NCBI RefSeq assembly: GCF_017916365.1
Contig: NZ_JAFMSU010000001.1
Coordinates: forward strand, 1,488,001-1,552,000
DNA length: 64,000 nt
Source of the DNA: Rufibacter roseolus
GTDB lineage: Bacteria; Bacteroidota; Bacteroidia; Cytophagales; Hymenobacteraceae
Reading direction: 5' to 3'
The notes under the pieces were generated by a model. The model made no database searches. It saw nothing but the letters and a program-made list of their open reading frames with translations, and was not told where the DNA came from. The position numbers were made by a program, and so were the translations under genes. This document shows, in pieces, positions 8,448 through 63,657 of this stretch. Every line of letters begins with the position of its first letter. The stretch's first letter is position 1.

Positions 8448-8520
8448 ACCTAAAGGGTTAGTTGCGGCTCAAGAAAGGGCAGAGGAAAGTGGCGGGCGCA
8501 GGTGCGTAGGAGTTCCGTCA

Positions 8521-8624
8521 CTTATCTCCCCCGGCGCGTAGGTGCAGCGGGTAGGAAGTAGCACCCAACTGAATTGGGTTGCTAAGACATCACAGGGCCT
8601 AATCCCTCCGTCTTTCTTGATAAG
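8521..8624 (-). ncRNA. SAM-I (S-box) riboswitch upstream of metH
   Basis: Read on the minus strand, the element opens with CTTATCAAGAAAGACGGAGG, continues with GGCCCTGTGATG and TTAGCAACC, has a P3/P4-type part with GGTGCTACTTCCTACC, and closes with GAGATAAG. CTTATC and GATAAG pair as P1. These are the conserved blocks of the S-box aptamer. The 73 nt between P1 and the metH ATG show no hairpin with a U-run, so control may be translational; that is inferred. Confidence 0.95.
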
Positions 8625-8630
8625 CATTAG

Positions 8631-55189: not shown

Positions 55190-56509
55190 TTACTGCATCC
55201 TTTCTAACTGCTCCGCGATGGATGCAAAATCAGGCCGATGGGTTGGCGCCGGGTGCATACAAATTTGTTTCAGCTGCCAGAGTTCTGCCACGCAAGCATG
55301 ATGGGCATCTTCCGGCGCTAAATGGTCCAGCAGATCTTCTAAGAGACATCCGAAGGCCCTTACTTCAATCTTTTCCAGAGCAGTGGCTTTCTGTGCGTCC
55401 GTTTTGTCATACAGCGTAGCCGCCCCAAAATCACCAAACAGCGCATGGCCTGATACATCTACCAAAGTATTATGTGCGTACAGGTCGCCGTGCATGATGC
55501 CGCGGGCATGCAGATGCGCCGCCGCCGAGGCAATGCCCCCCGCAATACTCAGGGTTTCCTGCAAAGTGAAAACGGTTCCTTCTGGGTAGACATCGCGGGT
55601 GCAGGAGGCAAAACTGGGGGAGCCCCCCAGGTTCCGGTAACCCGCCGGGATGAGTTCCAGCACCAGTCCCTGCTTCAGCGCTGGATGCTGCGTGATCTTA
55701 CCCAATACCTGCACCAGATTAGGATGTGATCCGGCGGCCATGCAGGCCTGCATCTCGTCCTCAGGCAAACCGTCGCTGGTGACTTCGCCTTTGAACACCT
55801 TTACCGCTACGTGCGCCGGGGCATCATGCGCCTTTGGGTTTGGCCAGTGGGCCCTTGAGATCACCCCCGAGGCGCCTTCGCCCAGCACATCCTCTAGCAC
55901 CAGCTCCTGCCAGGCAATCTCCTCCAGTTCCTCCATTTGGTGGTCGTGCTGGTTGCATGGGTTCCCCGAGATGGCTAGCCAGGACAAACGCGGCAAGGAA
56001 AACAGCCATTCCGGAAGCTGGGTGATCTCGTTGGCCGAGATCCGGAGCAGTTCCAGGTTCTGGCAGGCCGCCATTTCCTCAGGAAGACGGGTTAGCCTGT
56101 TACCCGCCAGCATCAGTTTCTGCATGCGGACGCATTTGCCAATGGAGGCCGGTAACTCCGCAATCTGGTTGTTGGTTAAGATGAGCCAGCGGGTATTCAC
56201 CGGAATGGCATCTTCGGCAATATGCCTGATCTTACACGCCTTAAACCCAATCATCTTCAGTTGCGGGCACTTTGCCAATACTGCCGGGAACTCAGCAAAG
56301 TCATTCTCAGAGAAGAACGCGATCTTCAGGTTTGTGAGTTGGGCAAACTCCTCCGGCAGGTGCGTTAAGCGATTGCCCGTAAGGTCCAGGATCTCCAGAG
56401 TAGCAGCGAGGGTTAAGATTTCCAGGGGAAACTCCGTCAGGTCACAGGATAGCTTCAGTCTTTTTGCCCCGGTCAGTTCGCCGGCCTGTAGTTGGGATAG
56501 GGTGTGCAT
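55190..56509 (-). CDS. Leucine-rich-repeat protein kinase
   Basis: A 439-residue fusion. About seven LRR units cover residues 20-190 (LEILDLTGNRLTHLPEEFAQL, MQKLMLAGNRLTRLPEEMAAC). A Hanks-type kinase domain follows (about 205-439) with glycine loop LGEGASGVISRA, VAVKVF with Lys237, catalytic loop HGDLYAHN (Asp342, Asn347) and FGDFGAA with Asp360. The HRD arginine is replaced by Gly, so activation-loop control is probably absent, but all catalytic residues are kept. No membrane helix or signal peptide. Possibly a cytoplasmic signalling kinase; partner unknown. Confidence 0.92.
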   Translation of the reverse strand: MHTLSQLQAGELTGAKRLKLSCDLTEFPLEILTLAATLEILDLTGNRLTHLPEEFAQLTNLKIAFFSENDFAEFPAVLAKCPQLKMIGFKACKIRHIAEDAIPVNTRWLILTNNQIAELPASIGKCVRMQKLMLAGNRLTRLPEEMAACQNLELLRISANEITQLPEWLFSLPRLSWLAISGNPCNQHDHQMEELEEIAWQELVLEDVLGEGASGVISRAHWPNPKAHDAPAHVAVKVFKGEVTSDGLPEDEMQACMAAGSHPNLVQVLGKITQHPALKQGLVLELIPAGYRNLGGSPSFASCTRDVYPEGTVFTLQETLSIAGGIASAAAHLHARGIMHGDLYAHNTLVDVSGHALFGDFGAATLYDKTDAQKATALEKIEVRAFGCLLEDLLDHLAPEDAHHACVAELWQLKQICMHPAPTHRPDFASIAEQLERMQ

Positions 56510-57390: not shown

Positions 57391-57424
57391 TAAATTTCCC
57401 TCCTTAGAGGGGTAGGGGTGGGTT
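57391..57424 (+). repeat. CCCCTCC/GAGGGG short repeat, copy 6
   Basis: TAAATTTCCCTCCTTAGAGG followed by GGTAGGGGTGGGTT. The full 56510-57637 stretch holds only repeats and no supportable gene. Confidence 0.65.
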
Positions 57425-57637
57425 CATAGGGAACCAGTTCCAAATCAGGGGTTTGCGGCAGGGATGCTTTTTTGGGTGGAGTAAAGAGATAAAAGCTTGA
57501 AGCTTTAAGGCTGTTTTCAAAAAAAGAGGGCTAAAAGGGAACACTGGTTTTTGAGAATGCGTTAATGCTGGAGATGATTCATTGGGAGTTGCATAAAAAT
57601 ACGGAGGGTAGACCTCCTAAATTTTTATCTATAAACT

Positions 57638-57652
57638 CTATTAAATTGATAG
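57638..57652. promoter_or_regulatory. Palindromic operator-like site upstream of the cys operon
   Basis: CTATTAAATTGATAG reads as CTATYAA-W-TTRATAG, two 7-bp half-sites. It ends 6 nt before the -33 element of the operon promoter, a place where a DNA-binding regulator would act. The regulator is unknown; an Rrf2/CymR-like protein is a guess. Confidence 0.5.
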
Positions 57653-57658
57653 GAAAAC

Positions 57659-57688
57659 TTGATTTGTGAAGATCGGTCCCTACCTTTG
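57659..57688 (+). promoter_or_regulatory. Promoter of the sulfate assimilation operon
   Basis: TTG (57659-57661), 19 nt, then TACCTTTG (57681-57688), matching the Bacteroidota TTG / TAnnTTTG promoter. Predicted start is about 57693-57695, some 35 nt before the leader ORF. Confidence 0.75.
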
Positions 57689-57728
57689 TGTCATCTTCAT
57701 TAACAGACAGATACAGATAACAGACTAC

Positions 57729-57797
57729 ATGGTCTATTCTTCTCATACAAAGCGAATGCGCTTCTGCTGTTGCAGCTCCTGCTGCTGTTGTTGCTAA
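57729..57797 (+). CDS. Polycysteine leader peptide of the cys operon
   Basis: A 22-codon ORF from ATG to TAA. Its second half reads MRFCCCSSCCCCC: residues 13-22 contain eight cysteines and two serines, encoded by TGC and TGT. It lies between a good promoter and cysH, ending 77 nt before the cysH ATG. Cysteine is the end product of the operon downstream. This is the layout of an amino-acid-sensing leader peptide, with ribosomes pausing when charged tRNA-Cys is scarce. The Cys codons overlap a small hairpin (GCAGC-TCCT-GCTGC). No U-run terminator is visible after it, so control could be by Rho, coupling or mRNA folding. Polycysteine leaders are known from mycobacteria; I know of no described case in Bacteroidota. 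Confidence 0.8.
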   Translation: MVYSSHTKRMRFCCCSSCCCCC

Positions 57798-57874
57798 TCT
57801 CTGGCAGTCAACAAATACCTATTGCCTACTCGGGCACCCCAATAATTCAATTTCTTACCTAGTACTTTCTTGCC

Positions 57875-58630
57875 ATGGCCTCTTCAAAACAAGAGCAGGT
57901 GTCTCAATTAATACAAGAGACAGAAGGCTTAACCATAGACCAGACGTTAGCGTTGCTGGTCAATCGTTTTCCCAATGAGGTGACTTTCTCTTCCAGCTTC
58001 AGCTTTGAAGACCAGGTGATCTCGCATCATATCCTGGAGAACAACTTCCCTATCCGCATTTTCACGTTGGACACCGGCCGCCTTTTCCCCGAGACTTACT
58101 CAGTGTGGAGCAGGACCAATGAGGCGTACAATACGCGCATTAAGGCCTACTACCCTAACAATGAGCAGCTGGAGGAGTTTATCCATAACACAGGGCCCAA
58201 TTCTTTCTATGAGTCTACCCAGAACCGGAAAGACTGCTGCCACATCAGAAAGGTGGAGCCGCTGAAGCGCGCGCTGGCGGGCAACTCCATCTGGATTACC
58301 GGTCTGCGCGCCGAGCACTCTCCGGGCCGCGGCGTTCTGCCCAAGTTTGAGTGGGACGAAGGAAATCAGTTGATCAAGTTTCACCCGTTGCTGTACTGGA
58401 CCACCGATGAGGTGATGGCTTTCATCAAGCAGAACAACATTCCTTACAACAAGCTCCACGACAAAGGCTTCATTTCCATTGGTTGTGCGCCTTGCACCCG
58501 CGCTATCCAGCCAGGCGAGGATTTCCGGGCTGGGCGCTGGTGGTGGGAAGACGCCAGCAAAAAAGAGTGCGGCCTTCACGTAACTGAGGAGCAGCCAGGG
58601 GTAGCCAACTCATTAGCCAAAATTGTTTAG
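57875..58630 (+). CDS. cysH: Adenylyl-sulfate (APS) reductase
   Basis: Reduces activated sulfate to sulfite; cytoplasmic. 251 residues. Signatures: TFSSSFSFEDQVISHHIL, TLDTGRLFPETY, DCCHIRKVEPLKRAL, and the C-terminal KECGLH with catalytic Cys232. Cys121-Cys122 and Cys204-x2-Cys207 form the CC/CxxC set that binds a 4Fe-4S cluster, which marks the APS-using type rather than the PAPS-using enterobacterial type. No APS kinase (cysC) gene is seen in the operon, in agreement. First full-size gene of the operon, behind the polycysteine leader. Confidence 0.95.
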   Translation: MASSKQEQVSQLIQETEGLTIDQTLALLVNRFPNEVTFSSSFSFEDQVISHHILENNFPIRIFTLDTGRLFPETYSVWSRTNEAYNTRIKAYYPNNEQLEEFIHNTGPNSFYESTQNRKDCCHIRKVEPLKRALAGNSIWITGLRAEHSPGRGVLPKFEWDEGNQLIKFHPLLYWTTDEVMAFIKQNNIPYNKLHDKGFISIGCAPCTRAIQPGEDFRAGRWWWEDASKKECGLHVTEEQPGVANSLAKIV

Positions 58631-58647
58631 CATAGCATTTTCAGATT

Positions 58648-59556
58648 ATGTCAGCATATAAATTAGATTACCTGGATCAGTTAGAATCAGAGGCGATTCA
58701 CATTTTCAGAGAAGTGGCGGGCCAGTTTGAGCGCCCAGCTCTTCTTTTTTCCGGCGGAAAAGACTCTATTGTGTTGGTGCATTTGGCTTTGAAAGCCTTT
58801 AGACCCGGCAAGTTCCCTTTCCCGCTGGTGCACATTGACACTGGCCACAACTTCCAGGAAGCCCTGGACTTCAGAGATTACCTGGCGGAGACCATAGGCG
58901 AGAAGCTGATTGTGCGCAACGTGGAAGACACCATCAAAGCCAAAGGCCTAACTGAGCAGAAAGGCAAGCTGCCTAGCCGCAACGGTCTGCAGACCTACAC
59001 CTTGCTGGACACCATTGAGGAGTTTGAGTTCGATGCCTGCATTGGCGGCGCCCGTCGCGATGAGGAGAAAGCCCGCGCCAAAGAGCGTATCTTCTCGGTA
59101 CGTGACGAGTTCGGTTCCTGGGATCCTAAGTTGCAGCGCCCTGAGCTCTGGAACATCTACAACGGCAGAATCAACAAAGGCGAGAACGTGCGCGTGTTCC
59201 CTATCAGCAACTGGACTGAGCTGGACATCTGGAACTACATCCGCCGCGAGAACATTGAGCTGCCTTCCATCTATTTCGCCCATGAGCGCGAAGTATTGGA
59301 GTTCGATGGCCGTCTGGTAGCCACCAACGAGTTTGTACAACTGCATGAGTCTGACGTGGTGACCCGCAAAACCGTGCGGTACCGCACCGTGGGCGACATG
59401 ACCTGTACTGCCGCCGTAGAATCCAGCGCCTCTACCCTGGACGACATCATCAACGAGATCATCGCCACCAACACCAGCGAGCGCGGCCAGACCCGCATTG
59501 ACGACCGCGTGTCCGAAGCTGCTATGGAAGACCGCAAGAAAAACGGATACTTCTAA
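58648..59556 (+). CDS. cysD: Sulfate adenylyltransferase subunit 2
   Basis: ATP sulfurylase catalytic subunit, forming APS from ATP and sulfate with CysN. 302 residues, standard length. PP-loop FSGGKDSIVLVHLA at about residues 34-47, then HIDTGHNFQEALDFRD, ACIGGARRDEEKARAKERIFS and FPISNWTELDIWNYI. Begins 17 nt after cysH. A 198-nt gap to cysN contains short direct repeats and a GTTTTC/GAAAAC box. Confidence 0.97.
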   Translation: MSAYKLDYLDQLESEAIHIFREVAGQFERPALLFSGGKDSIVLVHLALKAFRPGKFPFPLVHIDTGHNFQEALDFRDYLAETIGEKLIVRNVEDTIKAKGLTEQKGKLPSRNGLQTYTLLDTIEEFEFDACIGGARRDEEKARAKERIFSVRDEFGSWDPKLQRPELWNIYNGRINKGENVRVFPISNWTELDIWNYIRRENIELPSIYFAHEREVLEFDGRLVATNEFVQLHESDVVTRKTVRYRTVGDMTCTAAVESSASTLDDIINEIIATNTSERGQTRIDDRVSEAAMEDRKKNGYF

Positions 59557-59754
59557 GTGAATGAATGATTGAGTGCTGGAGTGAATGAGAGAATTGTTCG
59601 GCTCCGCCTCATGAAAGTGAATAAATGAAGAATGTCGGCGCAGCCGATGAAAGATATAGAAAGAGCACCTTGGGGTGAGCCTCCTTTTAGGTCTGTTTTT
59701 TAGAAAGCAGGCCGAAAACAGACTCAAGACTCAGAACCCAAGACTCAGAACTCA

Positions 59755-61038
59755 TTGAAAATGGATATTCTAAGATTTTTAACCGCCGGGAGCGTAGACG
59801 ATGGCAAGAGTACTTTGATTGGGCGTTTGTTGTATGACAGCAAGTCCATCATGGTAGACCAGCTGGAAGCCATTGAGCGGAGCACCAAGAACAAGGAAGA
59901 AGGCCGTGTGGACCTGGCTTTGCTCACCGACGGGCTTCGCGCGGAGCGGGAGCAGGGCATCACCATTGACGTTGCCTACAAGTACTTCTCTACGCCTAAG
60001 CGCAAATTCATCATCGCAGATACGCCGGGCCACATCCAGTACACCCGCAACATGGTGACCGGCGCGTCTAACTCAGACCTGGCCATTATCCTCATTGATG
60101 CCCGCCACGGCGTGGTGGAGCAGACCCGCCGCCACTCCATCATCGTTTCGCTGCTCAACCTGCCGCATGTGGTGGTGGCCGTGAACAAGATGGACCTGGT
60201 GCACTACTCGCAGGACAAGTACAATGACATTGTGATCGATTACTCCCAGGTGGCGGCTTCTTTGGGCCTGAAGAATGTGACCTACATTCCCATCAGTGCG
60301 TTGAACGGCGACAACATTGTGGAGAAATCAACCTCCATGCCTTGGTACGACGGAGGTTCTCTCCTGAGTGTGCTGGAGACCGTGGAGGTATCAGAAGACA
60401 TTAACCTCACTGAGGGCCGTTTCCCGGTGCAGTATGTGATCCGCCCTCAGACCGAAGAACTGCCTGATTACCGCGGTTACGCTGGCAAAATCATCAGCGG
60501 TATCTACCGCAAAGGCGACAAGGTGGTGGTACAGCCATCGGGTATTGAGAGCACCATCTCGGCGGTTGAACTGGGCGGCAAGGAAGTAGAAGAAGCCTTC
60601 GCGCCGCAGAGCGTGGTCCTGCACCTGGCAGACGATGTGGACATCAGCCGGGGCGACATGATTGTGAAGCAGGATGCCCCGGTACAGGTGGCGCAGGAGT
60701 TTGAAGTGGTATTGTGCTGGATGAGCAACACGCCGCTGGTACCCAGAAACCGCTACCTGCTGCAGATCAACAGCCGCAACGTGCGCTGTGTGGTGAAAGA
60801 ACTGGAATACAAACTAAACGTGAACACCCTGGAGAAAGAACTCTCCCCGGTTTCTGCGGGTTTGAATGATGTAGTGAAAGCCACCATCAAAACAGCTTCA
60901 CCCATTGCCTTTGACACCTACCAGAAATTGAGGGCCAACGGCGGCGCCATCCTTATTGACGAGACCAGCAACGTAACCGTTGGTGCCTGTATGATCACCA
61001 CCCAAGCCAGCGAGAAGCCTTTCTGGCCCGAAATCTAG
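59755..61038 (+). CDS. cysN: Sulfate adenylyltransferase subunit 1 (GTPase)
   Basis: GTPase that drives APS formation by CysD. 427 residues, without a fused APS kinase domain. G1 GSVDDGKSTLIGRLL (residues 11-25), G3 DTPGH, G4 NKMDL, then EF-Tu-like beta barrels. The absence of a CysC fusion fits the APS-type reductase encoded upstream. The start MKMDILRF lies 198 nt after cysD. Confidence 0.97.
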   Translation: MKMDILRFLTAGSVDDGKSTLIGRLLYDSKSIMVDQLEAIERSTKNKEEGRVDLALLTDGLRAEREQGITIDVAYKYFSTPKRKFIIADTPGHIQYTRNMVTGASNSDLAIILIDARHGVVEQTRRHSIIVSLLNLPHVVVAVNKMDLVHYSQDKYNDIVIDYSQVAASLGLKNVTYIPISALNGDNIVEKSTSMPWYDGGSLLSVLETVEVSEDINLTEGRFPVQYVIRPQTEELPDYRGYAGKIISGIYRKGDKVVVQPSGIESTISAVELGGKEVEEAFAPQSVVLHLADDVDISRGDMIVKQDAPVQVAQEFEVVLCWMSNTPLVPRNRYLLQINSRNVRCVVKELEYKLNVNTLEKELSPVSAGLNDVVKATIKTASPIAFDTYQKLRANGGAILIDETSNVTVGACMITTQASEKPFWPEI

Positions 61039-61115
61039 AAAACGGCCCTAAAACGGAAGTTCATACCATTGCCGCCGTCGCCCGCACGGGAGGCGGCGGA
61101 CTTACAAACAAAAGC

Positions 61116-61937
61116 ATGCAAGCAGCGCCACAAAAAGGAAAAGTGATCATTGCAGGTGCCGGTCCCGGCGATCCTGACCTGATCACTGTGAAGACGGTGA
61201 AGGCGTTGCGCCAGGCCCAGGTGATTCTGGTGGACCGGTTGGTGAGCGAAGAGATCCTGGAAACGTATGCTTCGCCCTCGGCGGAGGTCGTGTACGTGGG
61301 CAAGCAGTGCCGGAGCCAAGGCACCACGCCGCAGGCGACCATCAACGAGCTGCTGGTGGAGTACGCCTTGTTGGGTAAAAACGTGTTGCGCCTGAAAGGC
61401 GGCGATGTGTCTATTTTCTCCAACGTGCTGGACGAACTGCAGAGCCTGGTGGCCCACGAGATTGAGTACGAGATCATCCCCGGCATCACCGCAGCCTTAG
61501 GGGCGGCGGCCTACGCCGGCATTCCCTTAACGGCCCGGCAGCATTCTACCGCGGTGCGTTTTCTCACCTTCTACACCTATAGCAAACTCACCGATGCCTA
61601 TTGGCAGGAACTAGCCCAGACGGAGGACACCCTGGTGTTCTACATGTCCAGTGAGCGGCTGGCTGAGGTAGTGGAGAAACTCACGCGTCACGGTATCTCA
61701 GAGGAGAAACAACTGGCTGTGGTAGAACAGGCCACTACGCCCCTGCAGCACGTGCAAACCAGCAGTTTGTACGATTATGAAAGGAACCTGGGCGGGAAGA
61801 CGTTTGTCTCACCTTCGTTGGTAATCATTGGCAAAGTGGTGAACCTGCACCATGAGTTCAAGTGGTTTTCCAACAACCCAACTAGAGAATATTACTTCAA
61901 ACCGGTCGCTGAACAAGTGGGCTTGGTAGTTCAATAA
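61116..61937 (+). CDS. cobA: Uroporphyrinogen-III C-methyltransferase
   Basis: SUMT, which methylates uroporphyrinogen III to precorrin-2, the first step to siroheme needed by sulfite reductase. 273 residues. Typical pieces: VIIAGAGPGDPDLITVKTVKAL, VYVGKQC, LRLKGGDVSIFSNVLDEL, YEIIPGITAALGAAAYAGIP and QATTPLQHVQ. Single-domain form; the dehydrogenase/chelatase part of CysG is not present and must be elsewhere. It lies between cysN and the reductase genes, which supports the siroheme role over cobalamin. Confidence 0.95.
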   Translation: MQAAPQKGKVIIAGAGPGDPDLITVKTVKALRQAQVILVDRLVSEEILETYASPSAEVVYVGKQCRSQGTTPQATINELLVEYALLGKNVLRLKGGDVSIFSNVLDELQSLVAHEIEYEIIPGITAALGAAAYAGIPLTARQHSTAVRFLTFYTYSKLTDAYWQELAQTEDTLVFYMSSERLAEVVEKLTRHGISEEKQLAVVEQATTPLQHVQTSSLYDYERNLGGKTFVSPSLVIIGKVVNLHHEFKWFSNNPTREYYFKPVAEQVGLVVQ

Positions 61938-61947
61938 TGTATCTGTC

Positions 61948-63657
61948 ATGTTAGCAGAAGCTAAATTAAAAACCTTCCTGGATCTGGTCCAGCAATCGTC
62001 TAAAGAGGAACTGTTGTGGATGAGCGGTTACCTGGCCGGAGTTACTTCTGCCCCTGGGGTAGCCGCCCCGGCCGCTGAGTCTGCGGCTCCTGCCACCAAG
62101 CCAGCGGTAGGAAAGGTAACCATCGCGTACGGCACCGAGACCGGCAACTCCAAGCGCGTGGCCACTGATCTGGCGGGCAAAGCCAAGAAAAGCGGCATCA
62201 ACGCCCGCGTGGTGAGCCTAGACCAGTACCGCCTAAATGACCTGGAGAAGGAAGAATACTTCTTAACCGTCATCAGCACGCAGGGAGAGGGAGATCCGCC
62301 GGCCGGCGCCCAGAAGTTCTATGACTACGTGCACCAAACCGATAAAAAGCTGCCCAAACTCAAGTACAGCGTACTGGCACTGGGTGACACCTCTTACCCG
62401 CTGTTCTGCAAAGCCGGGGAGGACGTGGACGCGCAACTCCAGCGGCTGGGCGGTAGTCCGTTAGTGCCCATCCAGAAGTGCGACGTGGATTACGAGGACG
62501 AAGCCAACGCCTGGTTCCAGAGCGTGCTGCAGACCCTGAACAATGCCGCAGCCCCAGCCTCGGCACCTGCTGCTGCCCCTGCTCCGGCCAAGAAAACCGG
62601 TAAGAAAATATATAACGGCACTATTCTCACCAATATCGTATTGAATGACATAGGGTCTAACAAGTCAACGCACCACATTGAGATAGAGGCCGAGGATTTG
62701 GCTTACGAACCCGGTGATGCGTTGGGCGTGGTACCCAAGAACCGTCCTTTCACGGTAGAGGCCATCCTGAAGGTGACCGGCATCTCACCGGAGGACAAAG
62801 TGACCCACCGCAACAGCGAGTCTACGGTGAGAGAACTGCTGCAGGACAAAGTAAATATCACCTACCTGCCTGAGCGCGTGGTTAAAAAGTACGCTGAGGT
62901 GGTGGAGCAGGACATTCCCGCCACCCGCATTGATTTACTGGACCTTTTGAGAATTTACCCGGTAAAAGACGCCGAGCAGTTCAAAGAGGTAATACAGATT
63001 CTGGAACCTATCGCCCCGCGTTTGTACTCTATCTCTTCGTCGCTGGAGGCCCATCCGGGCGAGATCCACGTGACGGTAGCCAGAGACGAGTTCAGAATCA
63101 ACGAGGAGCTGCTGTGCGGCCATTGTTCAGATTACCTTTCTGAGCAGAAAGAAGGCCAGCCACTGGAGTTCTACATCCACAAGAACAGCCAGTTCAAACT
63201 GCCGGCTGCTGACAAGGACGTGATCATGATCGGGCCTGGCACAGGAGTAGCGCCTTTCCGCTCTTTCCTGGCAGAGCGCGATGCCACCGGGGCCGAGGGT
63301 CGCAACTGGCTTTTCTTCGGGGACCAGCACTTCGCCACCGATTTCCTGTACCAGACCGAGATCCAGAGCTGGTACGAAACCGGTATCCTGACCAAGTTCA
63401 ACGGCGCCTTCTCCCGCGACCAAAAGGAGAAAGTGTACGTGCAGCACAAGATGCAGGAAAACGCCGACGCTTTCTATGAGTGGCTCTCTTCTGGCGCATA
63501 CGTGTACGTGTGCGGGGCCAAAGAACCCATGAGCGTTGACGTGGAGAACACCCTTCTGCAGATCATCGGGTTGGGCGCCGGTTCTTCCCCAGAAGAAGCC
63601 GCCGTGTACCTGGAGCAACTGAAAGAAGAAGGCCGCTACCTGAAAGACGTGTATTAG
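61948..63657 (+). CDS. cysJ: Sulfite reductase flavoprotein subunit
   Basis: NADPH-dependent diflavin reductase that feeds electrons to the hemoprotein encoded next. 569 residues. An Ala/Pro-rich hinge (about 33-53) precedes a flavodoxin domain (about 54-195, YGTETGNSKRVATDL, STQGEGDPP). A second Ala/Pro linker precedes the FAD domain (RLYSISSS) and the NADPH domain (GPGTGVAPFRSFLAERD, CGAKEPM). It ends in YLKDVY. It begins 10 nt after the SUMT gene. Confidence 0.96.
   Translation: MLAEAKLKTFLDLVQQSSKEELLWMSGYLAGVTSAPGVAAPAAESAAPATKPAVGKVTIAYGTETGNSKRVATDLAGKAKKSGINARVVSLDQYRLNDLEKEEYFLTVISTQGEGDPPAGAQKFYDYVHQTDKKLPKLKYSVLALGDTSYPLFCKAGEDVDAQLQRLGGSPLVPIQKCDVDYEDEANAWFQSVLQTLNNAAAPASAPAAAPAPAKKTGKKIYNGTILTNIVLNDIGSNKSTHHIEIEAEDLAYEPGDALGVVPKNRPFTVEAILKVTGISPEDKVTHRNSESTVRELLQDKVNITYLPERVVKKYAEVVEQDIPATRIDLLDLLRIYPVKDAEQFKEVIQILEPIAPRLYSISSSLEAHPGEIHVTVARDEFRINEELLCGHCSDYLSEQKEGQPLEFYIHKNSQFKLPAADKDVIMIGPGTGVAPFRSFLAERDATGAEGRNWLFFGDQHFATDFLYQTEIQSWYETGILTKFNGAFSRDQKEKVYVQHKMQENADAFYEWLSSGAYVYVCGAKEPMSVDVENTLLQIIGLGAGSSPEEAAVYLEQLKEEGRYLKDVY

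Follow-up and report, generated by a model that had tools for sequence, protein, structure and literature searches.

A conserved polycysteine leader ORF ahead of cysH in Rufibacter and behind SAM-I riboswitches in its relatives

A 22-codon open reading frame (ORF) ending in a run of cysteine codons precedes the sulfate assimilation operon of Rufibacter roseolus, and ORFs of the same kind recur ahead of cysH in related genera and, at a nearly constant distance, behind SAM-I riboswitches. We consider it likely that the ORF is genuine and acts in cis, as a leader peptide that senses the level of charged tRNA-Cys, with a ribosome stalled on the cysteine codons keeping the operon on.

The stretch of DNA that we analyzed (the window) spans 64,000 nucleotides, and all features named here lie on its forward strand unless stated otherwise. 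The leader ORF occupies positions 57729-57797 and translates as MVYSSHTKRMRFCCCSSCCCCC followed by a stop codon, with cysteine at eight of the last ten residues. Upstream lies a Bacteroidota-type promoter at 57659-57688, composed of TTG (57659-57661), a gap of 19 nt, and TACCTTTG (57681-57688), which is conserved in the Rufibacter alignment; the predicted promoter ends 40 nt ahead of the leader ATG at 57729. For comparison, the flavobacterium sigma-A consensus is given as TAnnTTTG (PMC9723704). Between the end of the leader stop (57797) and the cysH ATG (57875) lies a spacer of 77 nt. The earlier note on this DNA had read the ORF, its eight terminal cysteines, its distance from cysH, and a TTG-N19-TACCTTTG promoter from the letters alone, and translation and coordinates bear out each of these. 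Downstream, the genes follow in the order cysH-cysD-cysN-cobA-cysJ: cysH, encoding (phospho)adenylyl-sulfate reductase (57875-58630), and then the rest of the operon (58648-63657), consisting of cysD (58648-59556), cysN (59755-61038 as listed, with a TTG start), the uroporphyrinogen-III methyltransferase gene cobA (61116-61937), and a gene for a CysJ-like flavoprotein whose profile score falls under the CysJ cut-off (61948-63657). The locus thereby has the first general hallmark of an amino-acid attenuator, a short ORF rich in codons for the end product and placed before a biosynthetic operon.

Immediately upstream of the promoter, adjoining its -33 element, is a block of 22 nt (CTCTATTAAATTGATAGGAAAA, 57636-57657) with few substitutions among 14 Rufibacter loci. 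We scanned the genome for a regulon sharing this block and found a single copy at up to three mismatches. Judged from its conservation, the block is possibly a transcription-factor site, perhaps specific to the cysH operon. Further upstream, on the minus strand (55190-56509), the window encodes a leucine-rich-repeat protein with a kinase-like C-terminal part, whose family matches are all far under their cut-offs.

We asked how widely the leader accompanies cysH within the family Hymenobacteraceae (order Cytophagales). A search of 150 genomes of the family recovered CysH in 114, and we read 59 of the 114 upstream regions, leaving out eight genomes of genus g4 with a distant CysH (32-37% identity). 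A leader was scored when the 520 nt upstream held an ORF no longer than 80 aa with at least four Cys in eight residues near its end. Genus g1 is Rufibacter, as the sequence of its locus L012 recurs without a mismatch inside L031, from Rufibacter ruber, and a contig of Hymenobacter nivis includes L024 of genus g6. Under this rule leaders were present at 14/14 cysH loci in Rufibacter, where the distance from leader stop to cysH is 73-82 nt, at 16/17 in g3, at 6/7 in g5, and at 14/21 in g6. Misses include L142 in g3 and, in g6, L135, with the Cys cluster within a longer ORF. First-order shuffles of the same regions passed in 24 of 1770 cases (1.4%). Lowering the requirement to three Cys adds one g5 and six g6 loci, among which L017 is doubtful by eye; since 223 of 1770 shuffles also reach three Cys, these cases rest only on likeness to their neighbors. 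The peptides vary by genus around the same Cys-run end, being MVYSSYIKRMRFCCCSSCCCC- in Rufibacter, MQT...CCCCCC-C in g3, and ...CCCM... with a GTG start in g6. Conservation upstream of cysH in related genomes, on which the earlier note had let its proposal depend, was therefore found in all four genera. Together with recurrence before other sulfur genes, described below, it supports the note's view that a leader precedes the cysteine pathway in this Bacteroidota lineage, where it would respond to cysteine.

Beyond the family, clear cysH leaders occur in Paraflavitalea (L032), in Chitinophagaceae and Chitinophagales metagenome-assembled genomes (L038 and L054), and in families f4, f22, f25, and f56 (L124, L179, L184, L162, L217, L194, and L195), with less clear ones at L034, L053, and L056. 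None of the 25 cysH loci read in f5, f11, f14, f18, f19, f36, f62, and f66 has four or more Cys, nor do any of the Larkinella, Spirosoma, and Dyadobacter cysH loci L042, L043, L052, and L055.

A scan of 20 leader loci against Rfam placed a SAM-I riboswitch (RF00162) ahead of the leader in 17, at 62.9-85.2 bits against a cut-off of 44.4; the exceptions were L005 (Rufibacter), L032, and L038. The SAM-I class has been reported in Bacteroidetes (PMC2258182). The window's own cysH locus has no RF00162 match. Across Rufibacter, none of ten cysH loci scanned directly has SAM-I and a whole-genome search gave no match near cysH in two more, which covers 12 of the 14. The R. roseolus genome nevertheless contains five SAM-I riboswitches. 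Cys-run ORFs stand behind four of these, ahead of genes for an OAH sulfhydrylase (metY), a RimK-like ATP-grasp enzyme, an M14 peptidase, and a SusC/RagA receptor. The riboswitch before metH (window 8519-8626, minus strand; 73.4 bits), 80 nt from the metH ATG, has no Cys leader ORF. At the SusC/RagA receptor (L251), two Cys-run leader ORFs lie in tandem behind one riboswitch (..LLMQACCCC and ..TFARMCCC).

To take a census of the family, we collected every above-cut-off SAM-I match in 31 genomes, which yielded 103 riboswitches in 30 genomes and none in one. A leader was scored when an ATG or GTG at -3 to +20 nt of the aptamer end opened an ORF of at most 80 aa with at least three Cys in eight of the last 25 residues. 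With genes labeled by sequence motifs, Cys leaders followed 27/27 riboswitches at metY, 12/12 at cysH, 10/10 at permease genes, 8/8 at ATP-grasp genes, and 12/13 at others (69/70), the 'others' including one gene, L281, that is also ATP-grasp-like. By the same labels, leaders followed none of the riboswitches at metH (0/30), cystathionine-type enzymes (0/2), or homoserine dehydrogenase (0/1; in sum 0/33). Nine of the proteins were checked by profile, including a nitrite/sulfite reductase (L364). The single miss among the 70 is L334, with VKSFASS...HGCCIMLRPVVCMPILGMSC. Only 177 of 20600 first-order shuffles (0.9%) passed the census rule, and under a looser rule, with the start anywhere up to +400, 2/33 metH-type riboswitches scored versus 70/70 of the others. 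Cobalamin riboswitches of the same genomes had a Cys leader in 0/30 cases, these being 30 of the 42 matches listed.

Leader geometry is nearly uniform. The start lies +6 to +12 nt from the aptamer end in 66 of 69 leaders, and at +9 in 28. The last Cys is the final codon in 46/69 and at most two codons from the stop in 64/69; Cys makes up 25.8% of the last 20 residues versus 1.2% before them, and the N-terminal parts are variable. Met, too, is commoner towards the end (6.4% versus 1.6%), by eye most strongly ahead of metY. In metY leaders such as L253, L332, L340, and L259, Met codons are bunched just ahead of the Cys run (MRMRMC, RMCTMSIMDICCCC), and because of this clustering, seen in the translated ORFs, metY leaders may sense methionine as well as cysteine.

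The pairing also occurs beyond the family. Elsewhere in the order, where we read 68 of 95 SAM-I matches with the start window widened to +30, leaders were present at 15/22 metY, 2/2 cysH, and 7/26 other riboswitches, and at 0/14 metH, 0/3 cystathionine-type, and 0/1 metX riboswitches. Families f2, f4, f5, f9, f14, f18, and f22 have metY leaders; three f11 metY riboswitches are without one, as are three of four in f5. In f14, f18, f2, and f5 the leader stands ahead of metY, yet none occurs at the cysH loci read. Among 40 further places at class level, three of them overlapping the 68 of the order, leaders were found at 4/7 metY, 0/8 metH, and 0/25 other riboswitches; in f19, metY has a leader in L403 and none in L379 and L389 (1/3). 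The best 30 phylum-level loci, mostly from f97, f93, and f92, have no Cys leader. At L195 (f56), a SAM riboswitch is followed by a terminator-like T-run hairpin (GCACC..GGTGCTTTTTT), a polycysteine leader, and then cysH, placing two sensors in series.

The Rufibacter leader is constrained at the nucleotide level, as judged by comparing aligned codons. Synonymous differences affect 23 of 1081 same-residue comparisons at leader codons 9-22 (2.1%), compared with 112/481 (23%) at codons 2-8 and 5744/17278 (33%) in Rufibacter cysH, where the lowest 14-codon block reaches 16.9%. Cys codons alone differ synonymously in 13/669 leader comparisons versus 119/364 in cysH. Several predicted hairpins coincide with the constrained part. 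H1 (AAGCG-AATG-CGCTT, 57750-57763), in the leader immediately 5' of the Cys codons, is almost invariant. H2 (GCAGC-TCCT-GCTGC, 57772-57785) is built from the codons of Cys15-Ser16 and Cys18-Cys19, and all five of its pairs are invariant across the 14 loci. H3 (57786-57813) pairs the last Cys codons and the stop with bases immediately 3' of the stop; 91.4% of its cells are paired versus 25.7-57.9% for slid versions. Two H3 pairs changed on both sides, which 46 of 500 shuffles equaled, and its covariation score was equaled by 1 of 500. These covariation events are few, because L005, L006, and L008 supply all four both-side cells, and L005 and L006 resemble each other. In addition, an element in the 5' UTR, AACAGACAGA (57702-57711), is complementary to TCTGCTGTT (57763-57771), which covers the first Cys codons. 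Both elements occur in 14/14 loci with single substitutions in L003, L010, and L011, and they are paired in the consensus fold; since changes fall on one side only, this pairing is a predicted structure.

By eye, a hairpin across the leader stop had seemed a general property of these leaders. A stop-hairpin test confined it to Rufibacter cysH, where 14 loci gave a mean z of -1.59 with five in the 5% tail; in 97 other leaders no H3-like signal was present (mean z -0.03, five in the tail), which rules out a general stop hairpin.

How would such a leader work? When cysteine is short, the ribosome would stall on the Cys codons abutting the stop and the transcript would continue into the operon; with ample cysteine, the ribosome would complete the leader and depart, and the operon would be off. 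Termination would be the default, so that an unread leader and a completed leader would both mean off and a stalled ribosome alone would mean on. Cys codons that end at or near the stop behind variable N-termini are what a codon-starvation sensor is expected to look like. SAM binding closes the P1 stem of the SAM-I aptamer. Because the riboswitch usually ends 6-12 nt ahead of the leader start, at a nearly constant distance, P1 closure in the relatives should block leader initiation, and their riboswitch genes would open only if SAM and cysteine are both low. We lean, with less assurance than for the leader itself, towards a broader reading in which the polycysteine ORF of Cytophagales and some other Bacteroidota is the expression platform of a class of SAM-I riboswitches, where SAM would gate leader translation, tRNA-Cys would govern stalling, and both would act through a common output, probably Rho. 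The Rufibacter cysH locus would then be derived, its riboswitch lost and its function taken over by hairpins.

The output step may be Rho-dependent termination in the C/U-rich spacer, which we tentatively regard as the likeliest output. We place Rho first because we found no general intrinsic terminator and no predicted fold that would hide the cysH start, and because the genome has a rho gene. The C/U-rich, G-poor spacer (57798-57874) is a weak candidate for a Rho-loading region. Spacers of the 14 Rufibacter cysH loci have a median C/G of 2.45 and 11% G, compared with C/G of 1.47 upstream of window genes and 1.09 at leaderless cysH. At SAM loci the median C/G of 1.41 is not above the 1.47 control, with permease and ATP-grasp loci near 1.1, so that outside Rufibacter composition is weak evidence for Rho.

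A less probable output, although one that deserves attention, is translational attenuation of the mycobacterial style, in which mRNA structure buries the start of the following gene unless a ribosome stalls on the Cys run. Polycysteine leader ORFs of mycobacteria (M. smegmatis) were reportedly tested by Canestrari et al. in 2020, and there the start of the next gene is said to be folded unless the ribosome stalls. A 2026 paper that cites their work reports translation attenuation for M. smegmatis cysteine genes. Consistent with this alternative, Rufibacter hairpins are conserved at the Cys run, and the consensus fold of six Rufibacter metY leaders pairs Cys codons with a site ~50 nt downstream. 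However, folding predictions for the 14 cysH loci put openness around the cysH start at 0.57 for free RNA versus 0.56, 0.53, and 0.57 with a ribosome footprint at Cys13, Cys19, and the stop, and three sets of metY loci (six from g1, five from g3, and six from g4) have no consensus structure linking leader and gene start.

Classical transcription attenuation, in which an intrinsic terminator competes with an antiterminator, is improbable as the output. H2 followed by TGTTGTTGCT is terminator-like in 13/14 Rufibacter loci (shuffled mean 1.0), and between aptamer end and gene 35/64 SAM loci contain terminator-like sites, clearly above the 20.1 of shuffled sequences (sd 3.1). However, the Rufibacter match lies inside the ORF (57772-57785) and its tail is interrupted by G, and the T-rich Cys codons may account for the excess counted over the leader. 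Past the leader stop, 19 of 64 SAM loci with the gene start in view have such sites versus 13.7 in shuffles (sd 2.3), which is mildly above expectation. The earlier note had cautioned that this mechanism may not apply for want of a U-run terminator, and these counts agree with it. Scanning 57400-58000 gave three terminator-like matches, two of which are one hairpin (57603-57617) seen on both strands and the third of which is the match at 57772-57785; none lies between leader and cysH. An intrinsic terminator with an antiterminator after the ORF, the other general hallmark of an attenuator, was found neither at the window's cysH nor, as a general feature, across the SAM loci. The hairpin at 57603-57617 (GGAGG..CCTCC), upstream of the promoter with T-rich tails on both strands, is perhaps a two-way terminator.

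It is very improbable that the peptide instead senses copper, zinc, heme, or redox state. Cys-rich peptides can bind metals and copper-responsive upstream ORFs containing Cys exist, but the Cys residues here mostly form plain terminal runs behind variable N-termini, most genes downstream belong to sulfur or amino-acid metabolism, and the leader is present at metY riboswitches and absent from metH riboswitches. A chance ORF we regard as practically negligible: CTG/TGC repeats readily yield Cys runs, and among 17 places with TGY runs tested in the R. roseolus genome the leader and one simple repeat are the sole exceptions, the rest lying inside frames of at least 100 codons. Against chance stand the conserved reading frame, the scarcity of synonymous changes, the division between gene classes, and shuffles that pass at rates of about 1%. 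A chance run had seemed very unlikely from the start, and ORFs at 14/14 Rufibacter loci against a four-Cys shuffle rate of 1.4% strengthen that judgment. The simple repeat (L241, C3:262290-262348) consists of ~20 TGT repeats outside ORFs of at least 100 codons.

A cysteine-codon leader here extends this kind of control to another phylum and suggests a regulon there. Our literature search, which covered titles and the openings of abstracts among the matches listed and few subscription journals, returned no Bacteroidota cysteine leader and, within the same scope, no SAM riboswitch coupled to a leader peptide. Since these matches show neither, we place the window's ORF among the cysteine leaders, now in a further phylum, and regard the tandem of riboswitch and leader as a new combination of known parts. 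Clues reported for amino-acid operons of a flavobacterium make leader-peptide attenuation likely there (PMC9723704). The candidate leader ORFs now number more than 100, comprising 69 from the family census, four at class level, 14 at Rufibacter cysH, and 24 from the rest of the order. They provide a testable rule, namely that in the family all metY and cysH riboswitches read carry a leader and no metH riboswitch does. They also offer a function for SAM riboswitches that lie ~200-570 nt from their gene. If the reading is correct, an aptamer and a leader at a nearly fixed distance form a natural two-input gate of riboswitch and ribosome, through which sulfur-acquisition genes would be expressed solely under a shortage of both sulfur products.

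Among known systems, tnaC of E. coli undergoes arrest on free tryptophan through its nascent peptide. The polycysteine leader resembles tnaC in having its putative stall site at the leader end by the stop, no U-run terminator, and rho in the genome, and it differs in that codon starvation, rather than nascent-peptide arrest, is the presumed signal. The closest counterparts are the mycobacterial polycysteine leaders. A 2005 study of Actinobacteria predicted Cys-run leader ORFs lacking terminators, proposed Rho as the output, and named the tna operon as a model (PMC1262725). As described there, those leaders share with ours a short ORF, a run of Cys codons near the stop, a position before a cys operon, the lack of a conserved terminator hairpin, and Rho as the proposed output. 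The present leaders belong to another phylum. In reference lists of citing papers, the title of the 2020 M. smegmatis paper terms the ORFs leaderless; in Rufibacter the predicted promoter ends 40 nt short of the ATG, and the leaders of relatives follow a SAM aptamer of ~100 nt, both of which argue against a leaderless mRNA. Unlike in mycobacterial translational attenuation, predicted openness of the cysH start is independent of ribosome position. Where a SAM-I riboswitch (RF00162) accompanies these leaders, its neighbor is the leader ORF instead of the gene start, and the window's cysH has no such riboswitch. An RNA sensor and a leader ORF share one 5' region in mgtL-mgtA and corL-corA of enterobacteria as well (PMC11552253). 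There, poor translation of the leader ORF keeps mgtA on, with Rho-dependent termination reported in Salmonella, and the same source states that for E. coli mgtA Rho termination went undetected. The two inputs differ: mgtL and corL combine Mg2+ with proline or acidic codons, whereas the leaders described here combine a SAM aptamer with Cys codons, their start usually 6-12 nt past the aptamer.
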